This document shows positions 3,463 to 26,603 of a stretch of 26,603 nt of DNA, piece by piece. The notes beneath the pieces are model-generated. The model was not told the origin of the DNA. It saw only the letters and a program-made list of their open reading frames with translations, and made no database searches. The position numbers and the translations under genes are program-made. This DNA is from a virus, in IMG/VR virus record IMGVR_UViG_3300046000_000847, positions 1-26,603 of that record; one strand, written 5' to 3'. Numbering within the stretch: the stretch's first letter is position 1; every line of letters begins with the position of its first letter.

Positions 3463-3912
3463 CTATTCCTTAATCCAATGCTGTTCCACACAACGCCATC
3501 CACGCTTGTCAAGATTGACATTTGTGCTGCCTGGTTGTGTGCTCAGACTAACCTGATCTACCAATTTATCTCGTATAAATCTTTCACAATCTCGTTCCCA
3601 CTGCAGATATAATTCTGCACTACTTCTCGTGCCACGTGATGCTGGTTCAACCCACCAAAACAATTCACGCATCCTAGTGCGGCTTCCAATCCAAGGATCT
3701 TGTTCCTTCATTGCACCTATCATACCTGTCACCACTCCGTTGTCTTCAGCAACCATGAGATAGTGATACAGTATAATATTAGTTAGTCGCTCACGGGCAC
3801 ATGATAAATCTTGCTGTGTCCATGAGTTGTAATCTAATAAACTGGCACCAGCAAATGCTTTCAACAACTGTAACAGTTGTTCTACATCCGCAACCCGTGC
3901 TGGTCTAATCAT
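3463..3912 (-). CDS. GNAT-like N-acetyltransferase in the tail module
   Basis: The 149-residue protein starts MIRPARVADVEQLL, the usual beta1-alpha1 opening of GNAT acetyltransferases. A VAEDNGVVTGMIGA strand pair lies at about 54-67, the segment ELFWWVEP is at 83-90, and RGTR at 93-96 sits where the acetyl-CoA pyrophosphate-binding Q/RxxGxG/A loop is expected. The C-terminal KRGWRCVEQHWIK matches the end of the fold. The start codon overlaps the stop of the preceding tail-tip gene by ATGA, and the J-like gene begins 6 bp after its stop, so it is expressed with the tail genes. The substrate is unknown. Modification of a virion or host protein would be a guess. The loop is degenerate, so a non-catalytic structural role is possible. 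Confidence 0.7.
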   Translation of the reverse strand: MIRPARVADVEQLLQLLKAFAGASLLDYNSWTQQDLSCARERLTNIILYHYLMVAEDNGVVTGMIGAMKEQDPWIGSRTRMRELFWWVEPASRGTRSSAELYLQWERDCERFIRDKLVDQVSLSTQPGSTNVNLDKRGWRCVEQHWIKE

Positions 3913-4772
3913 GCTACCGCCAAGGGCTTACCAAAGTCAAAGTTTGAGTTGGCAATAGTTGCCACACGGCCAAATGCCGCATCATTACCACGATAACTTG
4001 TGCCAGGTGTTGTTACAGTTACACTTGATACTTTATTTGCTGTGACAACTGCTGTGATTCTAGCACCTGTGGCTGCTGTTGAATCAGCGGTTGTAACTGT
4101 CAGGTTGGTGTATGTGCCATTGGTATAACCACTACCAGGTTCTATATCATCTATAGTTGCAATGGCACCTCCAGTGGTTGTAGTTGCAATTCTAAAACTA
4201 AAACCTGTTCCACCTGTTATTGCCGCGGTGCATAAGAAGCCAGGAAAGTTATACTTGCGTTCATAGTCGTTGGTTCTTTGTCCAACAATCTTTTGTTCTA
4301 ACACTTTGACAATGCTTGAGCAACTTACACTTACAGTTGTGGTTGCTGATTCACTGAACTGGTTGAACTCGTCATTGAAACTGTAGTTGGCAATGATACC
4401 TTGGAAACGCAGGCTTGGATTGCCTGTGATGTTTAGTTTGACTCCTGTGTTGGCATCAAAGAACATACGATAGATAATAACACTACTGCCTTTGAGTTTG
4501 TAATCCATCATGCTGGCAACAAATGCTTGATCAATGGCACTCATTGAAATGGTAACATCACTACCACTAGGTGTTAGTTCATTGTTGAATTCACTGATGC
4601 CAAGTAAGATACCCAAGGGTGAATATGTGTAAGCAACATTATCACTTTCTGTAATGCTGACAGGCACATCATGGCTACTAAACCGCAACACACCATAGTT
4701 GGGTATTGTCATGCGAACAAATGCCGCTTGCTTGACTGCTGAGTAAGATGTTAAATTAAGACCTGTGCTCAT
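3909..4772 (-). CDS. Tail tip / hub protein with inserted GSGY-type beta domain
   Basis: This 287-residue protein lies between the M-like protein and the GNAT-like/J-like genes, where lambda-type phages have gpL and gene transfer agents have DUF2163-type proteins. Residues 1-170 look like the hub fold (GISEFNNELTPSGSDVTISM near 55-75, then MDYKLKGSSVIIYRMFF near 88-104). Residues about 187-270 are different. They hold GSGYTNGTYT and a second TPGTSYRGND unit, a Gly/Thr-rich beta motif common in aquatic phage structural proteins. Its start overlaps the stop of the upstream gene by one base (TAATG), behind an AGAGGT Shine-Dalgarno. The tail-tip role is well supported by position. The exact family is inferred. 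Confidence 0.68.
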   Translation of the reverse strand: MSTGLNLTSYSAVKQAAFVRMTIPNYGVLRFSSHDVPVSITESDNVAYTYSPLGILLGISEFNNELTPSGSDVTISMSAIDQAFVASMMDYKLKGSSVIIYRMFFDANTGVKLNITGNPSLRFQGIIANYSFNDEFNQFSESATTTVSVSCSSIVKVLEQKIVGQRTNDYERKYNFPGFLCTAAITGGTGFSFRIATTTTGGAIATIDDIEPGSGYTNGTYTNLTVTTADSTAATGARITAVVTANKVSSVTVTTPGTSYRGNDAAFGRVATIANSNFDFGKPLAVA

Positions 4773-5413
4773 TATATGACCTCTTGGAATTCAAAGTCAC
4801 CATTAAACTCAATCAAGTCCTTTTCAACAAATGTCCATGTTGGTATCTTGGTGCAAATCACTGTCCAAGAAACTTCAGGACCAACTTTAAATGTGACTGC
4901 GGTTTCACTGGGAGTCTCAAGAATACTTCTGTGAACTTCAACCAATTGTGTTGCGGCACTACCTTTTGTCACAGCGGCAACAACACTATACACATACTTG
5001 CTGCCAGTGGGTTGAATTAAATCACCTGCTCTAAACAACAAACTGCCTGTTGATCCTGGCATGTTGCCTAGTTCAAACTTATAGGTATTACTTGCAGCCT
5101 GTGTGGCGTTATATTTCCAAGTCATTGTTGAAGTGGAAGTAGCATTGCCACGATACTGTGTGATCCACTCATAGCCAGCCTTGGTAAGATTAATGGTTTG
5201 ACTTTGCAACATGGCCTTGGTGTCAATGCTTTCTATATAACCACGGTGAGTGTTCCATACCATACGGCCAGGCATTGACACAGCAAACTTCCAAACTGCT
5301 CCACCACGGCTTACTGTGCGAATCACTTGATCACGACTGACAGTTTGACTTATCACTGGTCGTTTTGTAATGCTGATGTTTTCAGCATTGTCTATTACCC
5401 ATTGAAAACTCAT
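4772..5413 (-). CDS. Tail tip protein directly after the tape measure (M-like/distal tail)
   Basis: The protein has 213 residues and begins MSFQWVIDNAENISITKRP. It is rich in predicted beta strands, with VSRGGAVWKFAVSMPGRM near 33-50 and SWTVICTKIPTWTFVEKDL near the C-terminus. Its position just downstream of the tape measure gene matches lambda gpM and the distal tail proteins that join the tail tube to the tip. The start follows AGGAGAT by six bases and lies 3 bp after the tape measure stop, so the pair is co-transcribed and probably coupled. I recognise no catalytic motif. The assignment rests on gene order plus the beta-rich composition, so the family name is tentative. Confidence 0.65.
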   Translation of the reverse strand: MSFQWVIDNAENISITKRPVISQTVSRDQVIRTVSRGGAVWKFAVSMPGRMVWNTHRGYIESIDTKAMLQSQTINLTKAGYEWITQYRGNATSTSTMTWKYNATQAASNTYKFELGNMPGSTGSLLFRAGDLIQPTGSKYVYSVVAAVTKGSAATQLVEVHRSILETPSETAVTFKVGPEVSWTVICTKIPTWTFVEKDLIEFNGDFEFQEVI

Positions 5414-15589: not shown

Positions 15590-15644
15590 TGGGCTGTGGC
15601 CGCCAGGTCCTAGGTAGTAGGATAACTTTATTTAAGTCATAAGA

Positions 15645-15662
15645 AAGCCCCTTGCGGGGCTT
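15645..15662 (-). terminator. Intrinsic terminator after the 143-aa gene
   Basis: A perfect 7-bp stem AAGCCCC/GGGGCTT has a 4-base loop, TTGC on the plus strand. On the minus strand it is followed by TTTCTTATG. It starts 7 bp past the stop of the 143-aa gene at 15670. It separates that transcript from the packaging module. Confidence 0.85.
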
Positions 15663-15669
15663 GTTTGTT

Positions 15670-16101
15670 TTAGATGTTTAGTTCTTTACGCAAACGCATT
15701 ACTTCAGTTATCTGACGCTCTTTGCCTTTGAGCCCTGGATGTGTGGGCCAAATATCACCATGTGCTGGACTTGCGTAGGCACTACCAATTTCTAAATGAA
15801 AATCTTCACGGCGTCCTTCAGCATGTAGTTCAGCGGGTAAGAACACACAGAAATAAGGATGCTGATATGACTTTGGAAGTTTAAACTCGTTGATGCTGAG
15901 TTGGTTGCTAAATGGCTTAATGGTCAATCCATGTAATTTACATTGTGCTTCAAACCAATCCAAGCGTTGTTGATTTGACAATGCGTTCCAAGCGGCTTCA
16001 TCTGTGATGTCTGCTTGAACTTCTTGTGCTGTGCTGATGATAGCACTGATATTAAACTGCTCTGCCAGTTTACGAACTTTGTGTTTTAATGATTGGGCCA
16101 T
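15670..16101 (-). CDS. Unknown 143-aa protein with its own promoter and terminator
   Basis: The gene encodes a 143-residue protein beginning MAQSLKHKVRKLAEQFNISA. It has a near-perfect AAAGGAGG site seven bases before the ATG. An extended -10 promoter is at 16161-16153 and an intrinsic terminator directly follows, so it is a monocistronic unit and probably strongly expressed. The C-terminal half has HLEIGSAYASPAHGDIWPTH and a basic ending ERQITEVMRLRKELNI. There is no signal peptide or TM segment. I do not recognise the family. Independent control suggests a regulatory or early host-takeover role, but this is only inference. Confidence 0.8.
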   Translation of the reverse strand: MAQSLKHKVRKLAEQFNISAIISTAQEVQADITDEAAWNALSNQQRLDWFEAQCKLHGLTIKPFSNQLSINEFKLPKSYQHPYFCVFLPAELHAEGRREDFHLEIGSAYASPAHGDIWPTHPGLKGKERQITEVMRLRKELNI

Positions 16102-16152
16102 TTTGGACCCTCCTTTGTGTTATATGAACTACATTGTGTAGCCCATGTATCA

Positions 16153-16161
16153 ATTATAACA
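16153..16161 (-). promoter_or_regulatory. Extended -10 promoter for the 143-aa gene
   Basis: The minus strand reads TGTTATAAT, a perfect TATAAT with the TGn extension. It lies about 50 bp before the start codon of the gene at 16101. No good -35 box lies 16-18 bp upstream, which extended -10 promoters can do without. The leader contains a CTACA/TGTAG hairpin. Confidence 0.7.
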
Positions 16162-16194
16162 AACTAAACAGGACCATGCGACCTGAGCCTTGCC

Positions 16195-16225
16195 AAAAGG
16201 AAACCCCGTATCTCACGATAGGGGG
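16195..16225 (-). terminator. Intrinsic terminator of the small-RNA cassette
   Basis: On the minus strand, CCCC and TATC (16225-16217) pair with GATA and GGGG (16212-16204), with one C-C mismatch between them and a GTGA tetraloop. TTTCCTTTT (16203-16195) follows. Confidence 0.8.
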
Positions 16226-16282
16226 CTCCAGGATTTAATTACACACACGTTGCTGGAACCACACCACATAATCCCAGCACGT
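16195..16282 (-). ncRNA. Candidate small RNA, about 88 nt
   Basis: No protein gene lies between the strong promoter at 16317-16289 and the terminator at 16225-16195, so the cassette would make a short RNA. The expected +1 is A at 16282, seven bases past the -10. The RNA opens directly with a stem, ACGTGCTGG pairing with CCAGCAACGT (16256-16247, one bulged A), around a 17-base loop. Then comes a single-stranded GTGTGTAATTAAATCC stretch and the terminator hairpin with a U-rich end. A stem at +1, an open middle and an intrinsic terminator are the classic layout of bacterial small RNAs. The target is unknown. An 18-codon frame inside it has no good ribosome site. Confidence 0.72.
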
Positions 16283-16288
16283 ATATTT

Positions 16289-16317
16289 AGTATACAGGTT
16301 TAACAGGCTGTTGTCAA
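16289..16317 (-). promoter_or_regulatory. Strong sigma70 promoter for the small RNA
   Basis: The -35 box TTGACA (16317-16312) and the -10 box TATACT (16294-16289) are separated by exactly 17 bp, the closest match to consensus in the window. Just upstream lie two TCTGAT(A/T)A units ten bases apart (16323-16340), which could be UP-element-like or operator sites. The next protein gene starts 188 bp downstream, behind a terminator and a second promoter. Confidence 0.85.
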
Positions 16318-16352
16318 CGATTTCTGATAAAATCTGATTAACATTCAGCCCT

Positions 16353-16383
16353 ATTTTGATAAAACTTGAATCCTTATCAAAAT
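16353..16383. repeat. 10-bp inverted repeat after the 83-aa gene
   Basis: ATTTTGATAA (16353-16362) and TTATCAAAAT (16374-16383) form a perfect inverted repeat with an 11-base spacer, one base past the stop of the gene at 16385. There is no T-run after it, so it is a poor terminator. It shares TGATAA with the units at 16325-16330 just upstream of the small-RNA promoter, so a common binding protein is possible. Confidence 0.6.
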
Positions 16384-16384
16384 T

Positions 16385-16636
16385 TCAACATTGTAATTTA
16401 CGCACAAACTCCAGTTCTGGATCCAGATAACTTATTTCTAGTCCGCTGTCTTGCACATTTATAACACCAACAACTCCATTATTAATGGGTTGGCGTATTG
16501 TTATTGTGCATAAACCCTCTGCTTCATCAGCATACAACTGATTTAATATAGGATCTGCAAATTCTACTTCTAAGTTTTGTTTAAATTTCATAAATGCGTG
16601 ACACGCATCCTGGAATGTTAAAGTGTATGTGAACAT
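16385..16636 (-). CDS. Unknown 83-aa protein
   Basis: An 83-residue acidic protein (MFTYTLTFQDACHAFMKFKQ) whose ATG overlaps the preceding stop by one base (TAATG), so translation is coupled. It contains CTITIRQPINNGVVGVINVQ in the middle, probably a beta-hairpin, and ends EFVRKLQC. I do not recognise it. It lies in the pair of small genes between the origin-like element and the small-RNA cassette, at the end of the replication transcript. Confidence 0.72.
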   Translation of the reverse strand: MFTYTLTFQDACHAFMKFKQNLEVEFADPILNQLYADEAEGLCTITIRQPINNGVVGVINVQDSGLEISYLDPELEFVRKLQC

Positions 16637-20655: not shown

Positions 20656-20874
20656 AGTATCTCTCGTCGCTTGTTGGTAACATAATTTAAATTGTAATAG
20701 GGAGGCCATCCTTATTACGCCAAATCAGGGAATAGGATCAAGGTGCTGTTGGGGCACAGTTAAACATTTATATGTTTAACAACTTGGTCCTTTTCTTATG
20801 GCCAAAAGAAAAGCCCCAGTGCTTCCCAGCAGGAGGGCTTCAGTGAATGATGGATCCTGACCCTCTTGGGCTGG
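20622..20874 (+). ncRNA. Structured noncoding region, possible plus-strand RNA
   Basis: This gene-free stretch folds densely. In order: GCAAGTG/CACTTGC (20622-20642); an 11-bp helix joining 20645-20655 to 20718-20728 and enclosing a 9-bp hairpin at 20695-20717 that abuts it; GTTAAACAT/ATGTTTAAC (20759-20780); CTTTTCTT/AAGAAAAG (20790-20813); and a long hairpin at 20826-20874. Three of these helices contain a G-T position that pairs as G-U only if the plus strand is transcribed. On the minus strand they become A-C mismatches. No convincing plus-strand promoter or terminator was found, so transcription is unproven. A role as DNA structure near an origin is possible. Confidence 0.5.
20803..20840 (-). 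terminator. Possible terminator of the lysis-side transcript
   Basis: On the minus strand, AAGCCC (20840-20835) pairs with GGGCTT (20816-20811) around an inner TGCT/AGCA stem, and TTCTTTTGG follows. It lies about 95 bp past the stop of the 97-aa gene. The three-base internal loops weaken it. Confidence 0.5.
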
Positions 20875-20933
20875 AGCCTATGCTATACATGTCAACAACT
20901 TAGTGTTGTTAACACTTTTAGTTATGAATGTGT

Positions 20934-25853: not shown

Positions 25854-26603
25854 TTAAGTGCTGAAGCGAACAGTGTAAGACACAGTGCTGGTGGCAACTC
25901 CATATTCCACTGAAAGATTGTTGGAGCCTATACCATAATATCCCACTCTATAAATTGCAGGAGTGCCGCTGACACCTGGATAATGATACACAGTTGCATA
26001 AGCAATTGGCACATCATAATTGGTAGTGCGTGTTACACCTGAAGCCAGGGTTGTTACACTGCCAGCAGGTTCAGCAGGAGGCGCCGTATAAGTTCTTGTA
26101 AAACTTGATGCTGTTATTGTATTACCACTAATGGTGTATGTTCCATATACTGTGCCTAAATCATCGTTTAGAGTTAAGGTAGTATCTGGATTTGTTCCTG
26201 GTTGGCTCCATCTATTAAAAGCATTCATTTTTACATAAAATGATGTTGCACTAATAGGTATAACAACTAAGTTGCTTGAGCGAGTGCTTTTAACAGTGTA
26301 GGAGTTCCAAAACGGATCAGTGCTGATCTTACCAGTGGCAGCACCCAGGGCTTGAATGTATTGCTCAATTGATTGAACACCACTATTGAAGGTGTATGCA
26401 CCCACAGTGGTTGTAGAAAGAGTAAAATAATTTAATTTACAAACCCATCTATTGGAACCAGGCACAGGATAAATTCTATCACCAGTGGGATATTCTGTAG
26501 TGCTTGTAGGAGCAAATATATTATTCAATGAACTTGGAAACACTGTCCAGTTTAGGCCATTGGTGCTGTAATACATTGTAGGTCCAGAAATGGAACTAAG
26601 TTG
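25854..26603 (-). CDS. J-like tail tip protein, C-terminal part (continues from position 4)
   Basis: This is the end of the tail-tip gene, open to the right edge and in frame with the part at 1-3456 through the 126-bp overlap. The part unique to this end (26477-25854) encodes 207 residues. They begin with RIYPVPGSNRWVCKLNYFTL, run through strand-rich segments (SNLVVIPISATSFYVKMNAF), and end TVSYTVRFST before the stop at 25854. An ATG at 26576 is internal, not a start. The C-terminal part would be the most exposed receptor-contacting region, inferred from the J family. There are no collagen-like or knob motifs I recognise. Confidence 0.85.
   Translation of the reverse strand, partial: QLSSISGPTMYYSTNGLNWTVFPSSLNNIFAPTSTTEYPTGDRIYPVPGSNRWVCKLNYFTLSTTTVGAYTFNSGVQSIEQYIQALGAATGKISTDPFWNSYTVKSTRSSNLVVIPISATSFYVKMNAFNRWSQPGTNPDTTLTLNDDLGTVYGTYTISGNTITASSFTRTYTAPPAEPAGSVTTLASGVTRTTNYDVPIAYATVYHYPGVSGTPAIYRVGYYGIGSNNLSVEYGVATSTVSYTVRFST
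26478..26603. repeat. Right copy of 126-bp end overlap
   Basis: Identical to 4-129 over 126 bases and lying in the same reading frame. Removing one copy closes the genome at about 26,477 bp. Confidence 0.93.

Follow-up and report, generated by a model that had tools for sequence, protein, structure and literature searches.

The stretch of DNA analysed here (hereafter the window; 26,603 nt in full) is a 26.6-kb virus record whose main genes lie on the minus strand, with profile matches to terminase, portal, scaffold, capsid, tape measure and tail-fibre genes and to a primase-like protein. Bases 4–129 and 26478–26603 are identical and form a terminal repeat of 126 bp, which makes a complete and circularly closed genome probable even though the record carries no such classification. 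The closest named relatives of its TerL, those of Pelagibacter phage HTVC026P and phage DSL-LC06, are only about 43% identical. Lying on the minus strand between the replication and packaging genes is a cassette of about 125 bp (16195–16322), delimited as a modular unit by alignment breakpoints with the related loci L008, L006 and L083. It opens with a sigma-70-type promoter, P1 (16289–16317, minus strand), made up of a −35 TTGACA (16317–16312), a 17-nt spacer and a −10 TATACT (16294–16289), both hexamers being invariant in four homologous cassettes. Promoter geometry predicts a transcription start at A16282, 7 nt past the last base of the −10, in agreement with the start proposed in an initial annotation of this sequence. 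That annotation also called P1 the strongest promoter of the genome, which holds in the sense that it is the top sigma-70-like site of the window by consensus match score only: in a position-weight scan P1 scored 14.6 and the runner-up, which is antisense, 13.2, while the best site over 30 order-1 shuffled genomes scored 14.3, slightly below P1. Downstream of P1 are about 88 nt of gene-free sequence, comprising a hairpin, an unpaired linker and an intrinsic terminator and ending at 16195, a layout that was rightly described as typical of bacterial small RNAs (sRNAs). The cassette had been said to make no protein; indeed, no ORF of at least 40 aa is present between 16102 and 16384, and neither the frame nor the length of a short ATG frame within the cassette is conserved (peptides of 10, 11, 10 and 18 aa across the four copies).

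The full 86-nt RNA has a predicted folding energy of −34.8 kcal/mol (z −4.2), and none of 200 shuffled sequences folded as well; the RNAs of three relatives gave fold z values of −3.7 to −5.7. The 5′ hairpin (16251–16279, minus strand) alone gave −17.9 kcal/mol (z −3.5) when folded as a single sequence. In the comparative structure it is a helix of 12 pairs (16279–16268 with 16262–16251) closed by the 5-nt loop GUGGU, its lower stem covarying and its tip, UUAUGUGGUGUGG, being invariant with four pairs, three of which are U.G wobbles. A 9-bp stem with a 17-base loop had originally been drawn here: the hairpin stands, but comparison gives 12 pairs, most of the supposed loop is probably paired, and some relatives do not keep the outer ACGT/ACGT pairs. 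Because the consensus fold pairs most of the 17-base loop, its suggested role as a seed is doubtful, and by comparison of the copies the invariant linker appears the better candidate. This linker (16230–16250, minus strand; 3′ end GTGTGTAATTAAATCCT) is predicted to be unpaired, may act as a seed or a protein-binding stretch, and in the four copies is invariant save for a variable GT/GTG repeat and its first bases. It leads into the intrinsic terminator T1 (16195–16229, minus strand; GGAGCCCCCTATCGTGAGATACGGGGTTTCC then TTTT), recognized by fold and alignment, which as RNA reads GGAGCCCC-C-UAUC-GUGA-GAUA-C-GGGGUUUCC then UUUU and has a stem of 12 pairs bearing a C.C mismatch. A terminator with a U-rich tail, as first annotated, is therefore present and conserved, with a final run of only four U residues in the window, six in L006 and five in L083, and a short run also in L007; a simple terminator scan of the window did not have T1 among its listed terminators.

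With TerL as query, 80 loci were retrieved, among which L006 and L007 carry the cassette; a linker pattern search added the carrier L083, an identical cassette is present in L005/L002, and the 143-aa protein encoded next to the cassette retrieved only a near-identical contig. The comparison thus comprises four distinct copies, all related (window, L006, L007 and L083), with TerL identities to the window of 93, 92 and 80%, respectively, for the latter three. The cassette is absent from all other relatives examined. When a covariance model (R1) was run over 28 related records and the window, the four cassettes scored 110–115 bits and the next best match no more than 28.4 bits; weak matches in L023, L018, L028, L012 and L032 resembled the cassette in the form of the terminator or over a short piece of the linker, and not in the hairpin. 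No further cassette was found by nhmmer over the collected loci. Searches for diverged viral copies with hairpin, linker and terminator patterns returned the same carriers and chance matches, among them L084 and L252–L256, and among the matches listed for the promoter-only pattern TTGACA-17-TATACTAAATA nothing was informative.

When the copies are aligned, the promoter hexamers, hairpin tip, linker and terminator are invariant or nearly so and the promoter spacer and lower stem are variable. All 96 helix cells are paired across the four copies, with no broken pair, and at 4 of the 12 hairpin pairs both sides have changed with pairing kept. Compensatory stem changes in related phages, which the initial annotation had anticipated, are thus found, and the promoter and terminator are present in all four copies, in none of which has a protein gene taken the place of the RNA. 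The observed pairing and double changes were matched by 17 of 500 shuffles; shifting the helix partners by 1–3 columns reduced pairing to 41–54% of cells; and RNAalifold, when given no structure, recovered the same 24 pairs with a consensus fold of −32.5 kcal/mol. The terminator helix is invariant across copies and so by itself carries no covariation information. In a strand test on the hairpin, 48 of 48 cells paired as minus-strand RNA and, owing to the wobble pairs, only 33 of 48 as plus-strand RNA, so that the minus-strand transcript appears to be the folded molecule. The cassette goes beyond what chance would give, and the existence of a genuine strand-specific noncoding RNA gene is, on these alignments, well supported.

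The linker and terminator (the last 48 nt) are 97.9, 100 and 100% identical to those of the window, i.e. one change over three comparisons; in the neighbouring 122-aa gene identity at third codon positions is 81–86%, and the promoter spacer matches at 10, 10 and 6 of 17 positions (35–59%). Drawn from four related sequences only, this is strong though not conclusive evidence of constraint. Relative to the window, L083 8039–10316 is mosaic, with third positions 86% identical in the 122-aa gene and only 55% in TerL; as this points to recent exchange around the cassette, which probably took place in the L083 region, the 122-aa gene can serve as a fair clock.

The cassette has clean boundaries. Alignments of the window with L006 and L083 break off exactly where T1 ends (16195) and pick up again at 15651; on the promoter side, the alignment with L008, which lacks the cassette, extends no further than 16323, 6 bp short of the −35. 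In L007 the flanking genes differ on both sides. The late region follows directly after T1 in L006 and L083, whereas in the window a separate unit outside the RNA gene (15641–16159, minus strand; absent from L006 and L083) sits precisely between T1 and the late block. It consists of an extended −10 promoter (TGTTATAAT / TGTTATAATTGATACATG, minus strand), a 143-aa gene (15670–16101, minus strand) with no family match, and a terminator, AAGCCCCGCAAGGGGCTTTCTT; the same promoter-leader type precedes different genes in L007 and L009. The motif TAAATAAAGTTATCCTACTACCTAGGACC lies at about 15602–15635 (minus strand); versions resembling CTACCTTAGGAC precede the packaging genes of L006, L083, L011, L013 and L016, and the motif could be a cos/pac site or a late regulatory site. 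L007 has a second TerS-like gene (GGARPGGGRPKG; 1180–1517) upstream of its cassette, and a 490-aa frame (3471–4942) between TerS and TerL.

No Rfam 15 family, GcvB included, scored above its gathering cut-off in the window, and a permissive Rfam scan of 16150–16350 gave chance-level matches only (e.g. SprX at 11.1 bits against a cut-off of 80). Among 50,697 named phage records there was no meaningful match (best E = 5). A host homologue was likewise sought, but the hairpin pattern had 33 chance-level matches in 84,980 bacterial and archaeal genomes, none of them with the linker after it. The cassette therefore represents a new RNA family of a kind, the phage-encoded sRNA, that is already known. 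GcvB-type sRNAs have G/U-rich pairing regions, and the invariant GUGGUGUGG of the cassette could likewise pair with C/A-rich mRNA sites; the cassette differs, however, in that Rfam gives no match to GcvB and in that the predicted fold places most of its G/U-rich part in pairs.

At the level of sequence, the cassette has the attributes of an autonomous phage sRNA gene: a promoter and a terminator of its own, a covarying structure and no conserved ORF. Our favoured interpretation, to which we give a modest preference, is that it is an RNA-only ‘moron’ encoding a trans-acting sRNA; the sRNA gene is well supported, and its action in trans is plausible and unproven. Under this proposal, host RNA polymerase would start at P1, at about 16282 on the minus strand, and an RNA of about 88 nt (5′ hairpin, linker and terminator hairpin) would be made and released at T1 (16195). 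The spacer shows no sign of a conserved operator, and transcription may therefore proceed from early in infection. The invariant linker GUGUGUAAUUAAAUCC, perhaps together with the G/U-rich hairpin tip, would base-pair with host or phage mRNAs. Among the relatives the cassette is either present or missing as a single piece, at a position that separates the replication genes from the packaging genes. A decoy role, also suggested in the initial annotation, with a host RNA or protein as the bound partner, would be a less probable variant of this proposal, and a CsrA decoy was rejected because the copies share too few GGA sites.

Scans for targets within the phage gave none that both exceeded shuffled sequence and was also kept by L083. 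The helicase start (GGATTTAAACACAC, 18996) was considered as a target of the linker, but its −15.0 kcal/mol is within the shuffled range and the L083 start lacks most of the site. The start of the 122-aa gene was considered as a target of the loop, with p of about 0.03 in the window and 0.17 in L083; the same start sequence occurs in L008, which lacks the RNA. These null scans, though an absence of evidence, shift the odds towards a target in the host or a partner protein. The sequence conservation of T1 and its short U tail in the window count against the favoured reading, the former because a simple base-pairing sRNA would not need it.

Given its location, the main rival to an sRNA acting in trans is an arrangement of the lambda PR′/6S type, in which P1 would be a constitutive late promoter and the RNA a short terminated leader, a Q-like phage factor or the RNA itself (as in HK022 put) carrying polymerase past T1 into the packaging, head and tail genes. 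We regard this as possible but distinctly less probable. Like lambda PR′-tR′/6S, the cassette combines a strong constitutive-type promoter with a short terminated RNA and is placed before late genes: the promoter, hairpin and terminator lie just before the packaging genes in all four phages, T1 (16229–16195) precedes the late block, and no other strong sense promoter is found between T1 and TerL in L006, L083 and L018. L018 also has a strong promoter-hairpin-terminator of unrelated sequence ending about 40 nt before TerS, and L009 a weaker leader in the same slot. However, among 108 distinct upstream regions with enough sequence (L007 being inspected directly), only the four carriers and L018 combine a strong promoter with a gene-free terminator downstream of it, so this is not a late promoter that the group uses in general, and in the window the second promoter-gene-terminator unit intervenes between T1 and the late genes. 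Q action needs both a Q site in the spacer and a −10-like element (PMC6606751). Here the spacer that would hold the Q site is unconserved (6–10 of 17 positions), and the −10-like GATTAT at +10 to +15 (GATTAT/AGTTAT/AATTAT/GATTAT) loses its key A in L006; the cassette thus differs from lambda PR′/Q in having no conserved Q spacer or −10-like pause signal, and in its absence from most relatives. Among the scanned phage proteins none was recognisable as a Q or N family member by PHROG or Pfam match, several being without any match. The two readings overlap, as lambda 6S has been reported as an Hfq-dependent sRNA (PMC12197685), and a terminated leader could itself act as an sRNA.

We consider it unlikely that the hairpin acts in cis at the early/late junction as a new type of RNA antiterminator or switch, in a scheme where related phages would exchange unrelated promoter-hairpin-terminator leaders at one site, as specificity cassettes, to control late genes with no known Q protein. 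Since other members of the group carry a different hairpin and terminator before their packaging genes (L018, L009 and L008/L012), a shared cis role at the junction is possible. The cassette resembles HK022 put in having a structured RNA at the very start of the transcript with terminators after it. The put RNAs consist of two antiterminating hairpins (PMC9378689), adjacent and together about 70 nt, whereas the cassette has one hairpin and an intact, conserved terminator, a difference drawn by description that also weighs against the put-like form of the late leader.

Promoter-hairpin-terminator leaders of other sequence families occur not only in the TerS slot (L018 and L009) but also before replication genes (window and L083), a recurrence that lends some weight to a role in cis. 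At 20800–20925 (minus strand) of the window lie a palindrome, GTTAACAAC-ACTAA-GTTGTTGAC, then TATAGCATAGG, a small CCC-AAGA-GGG hairpin and a terminator; this element is near-identical in L083, a related form lies directly before TerS in L009, and in L018 a comparable hairpin with an AAGA loop follows a different promoter. At 20691–20806 (minus strand), upstream of the replication genes, lies a further conserved noncoding RNA, of about 110 nt. Its stems, of which there are several (e.g. GTTAAACAT/ATGTTTAAC), differ from those of L083 (L251 103–219) and L008 (2865–2980) by changes that look compensatory; its core, GTGCCCCAACAGCACCTTG, is invariant, it has no Rfam match, and it is possibly a riboswitch-, ribozyme- or leader-type element.

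The remaining explanations fare worse. An insulator alone, with T1 ending early transcription, P1 incidental and the hairpin without a role, is in keeping with the terminators of varied sequence at this junction in many group members, but we think it quite improbable, as it leaves unexplained the four compensatory pairs, the invariant tip and linker and the conserved promoter hexamers. Still less do we favour a replication or packaging signal, in which the RNA would prime DNA synthesis or the DNA would be an origin or a cos/pac site. The position of the cassette between replication and packaging genes would suit such a role, as would the direct repeats AATCAAGTTTTATCA upstream of the −35 (16323–16385, minus strand) in the window, L006, L083 and L008; yet L007 has the cassette without the repeats, L008 the repeats without the cassette, and most relatives must replicate and package without it. 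A small-peptide gene (ATG TGG TGT GG..., giving a short MWCG peptide with the hairpin as a side effect) is scarcely credible, for although an ATG frame occupies the corresponding position in each of the four copies and reads MWCGSSNVCN, MWCGSNIVCGN and MWCGPSNVCN in the relatives, a 2-nt frame shift turns the window copy into MWCGSSNVCVIKSWSPLS, the start codon is inside the hairpin with no conserved ribosome site, and substitutions track base-pairing and not codons.

Phage sRNAs that act in trans include lambda PreS (LPR1), VpdS, AgvB/EcOnc01, sar and DicF (reviewed in PMC12197685). The putative cassette RNA is alike in size (PreS is about 88 nt) but has no sequence match in Rfam or among named phages; PreS, VpdS and others act on host or phage RNAs, as is proposed here for an RNA acting in trans. 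It resembles phage morons in its own promoter and terminator, clean boundaries and patchy presence, and differs from the usual ones in carrying an RNA and not a protein gene, whereas the window has a usual protein-coding unit right behind it. Most of the phage sRNAs known so far come from prophages and from phages of model bacteria, whereas this is a covariation-supported family in uncultured environmental tailed phages whose named relatives are all distant. Being a clean unit of about 125 bp, the cassette offers a defined sequence to seek in metatranscriptomes. If action in trans is true, morons can carry nothing but RNA; if action in cis is true, the cassette would point to a switch for late genes that neither the lambda nor the HK022 model covers.
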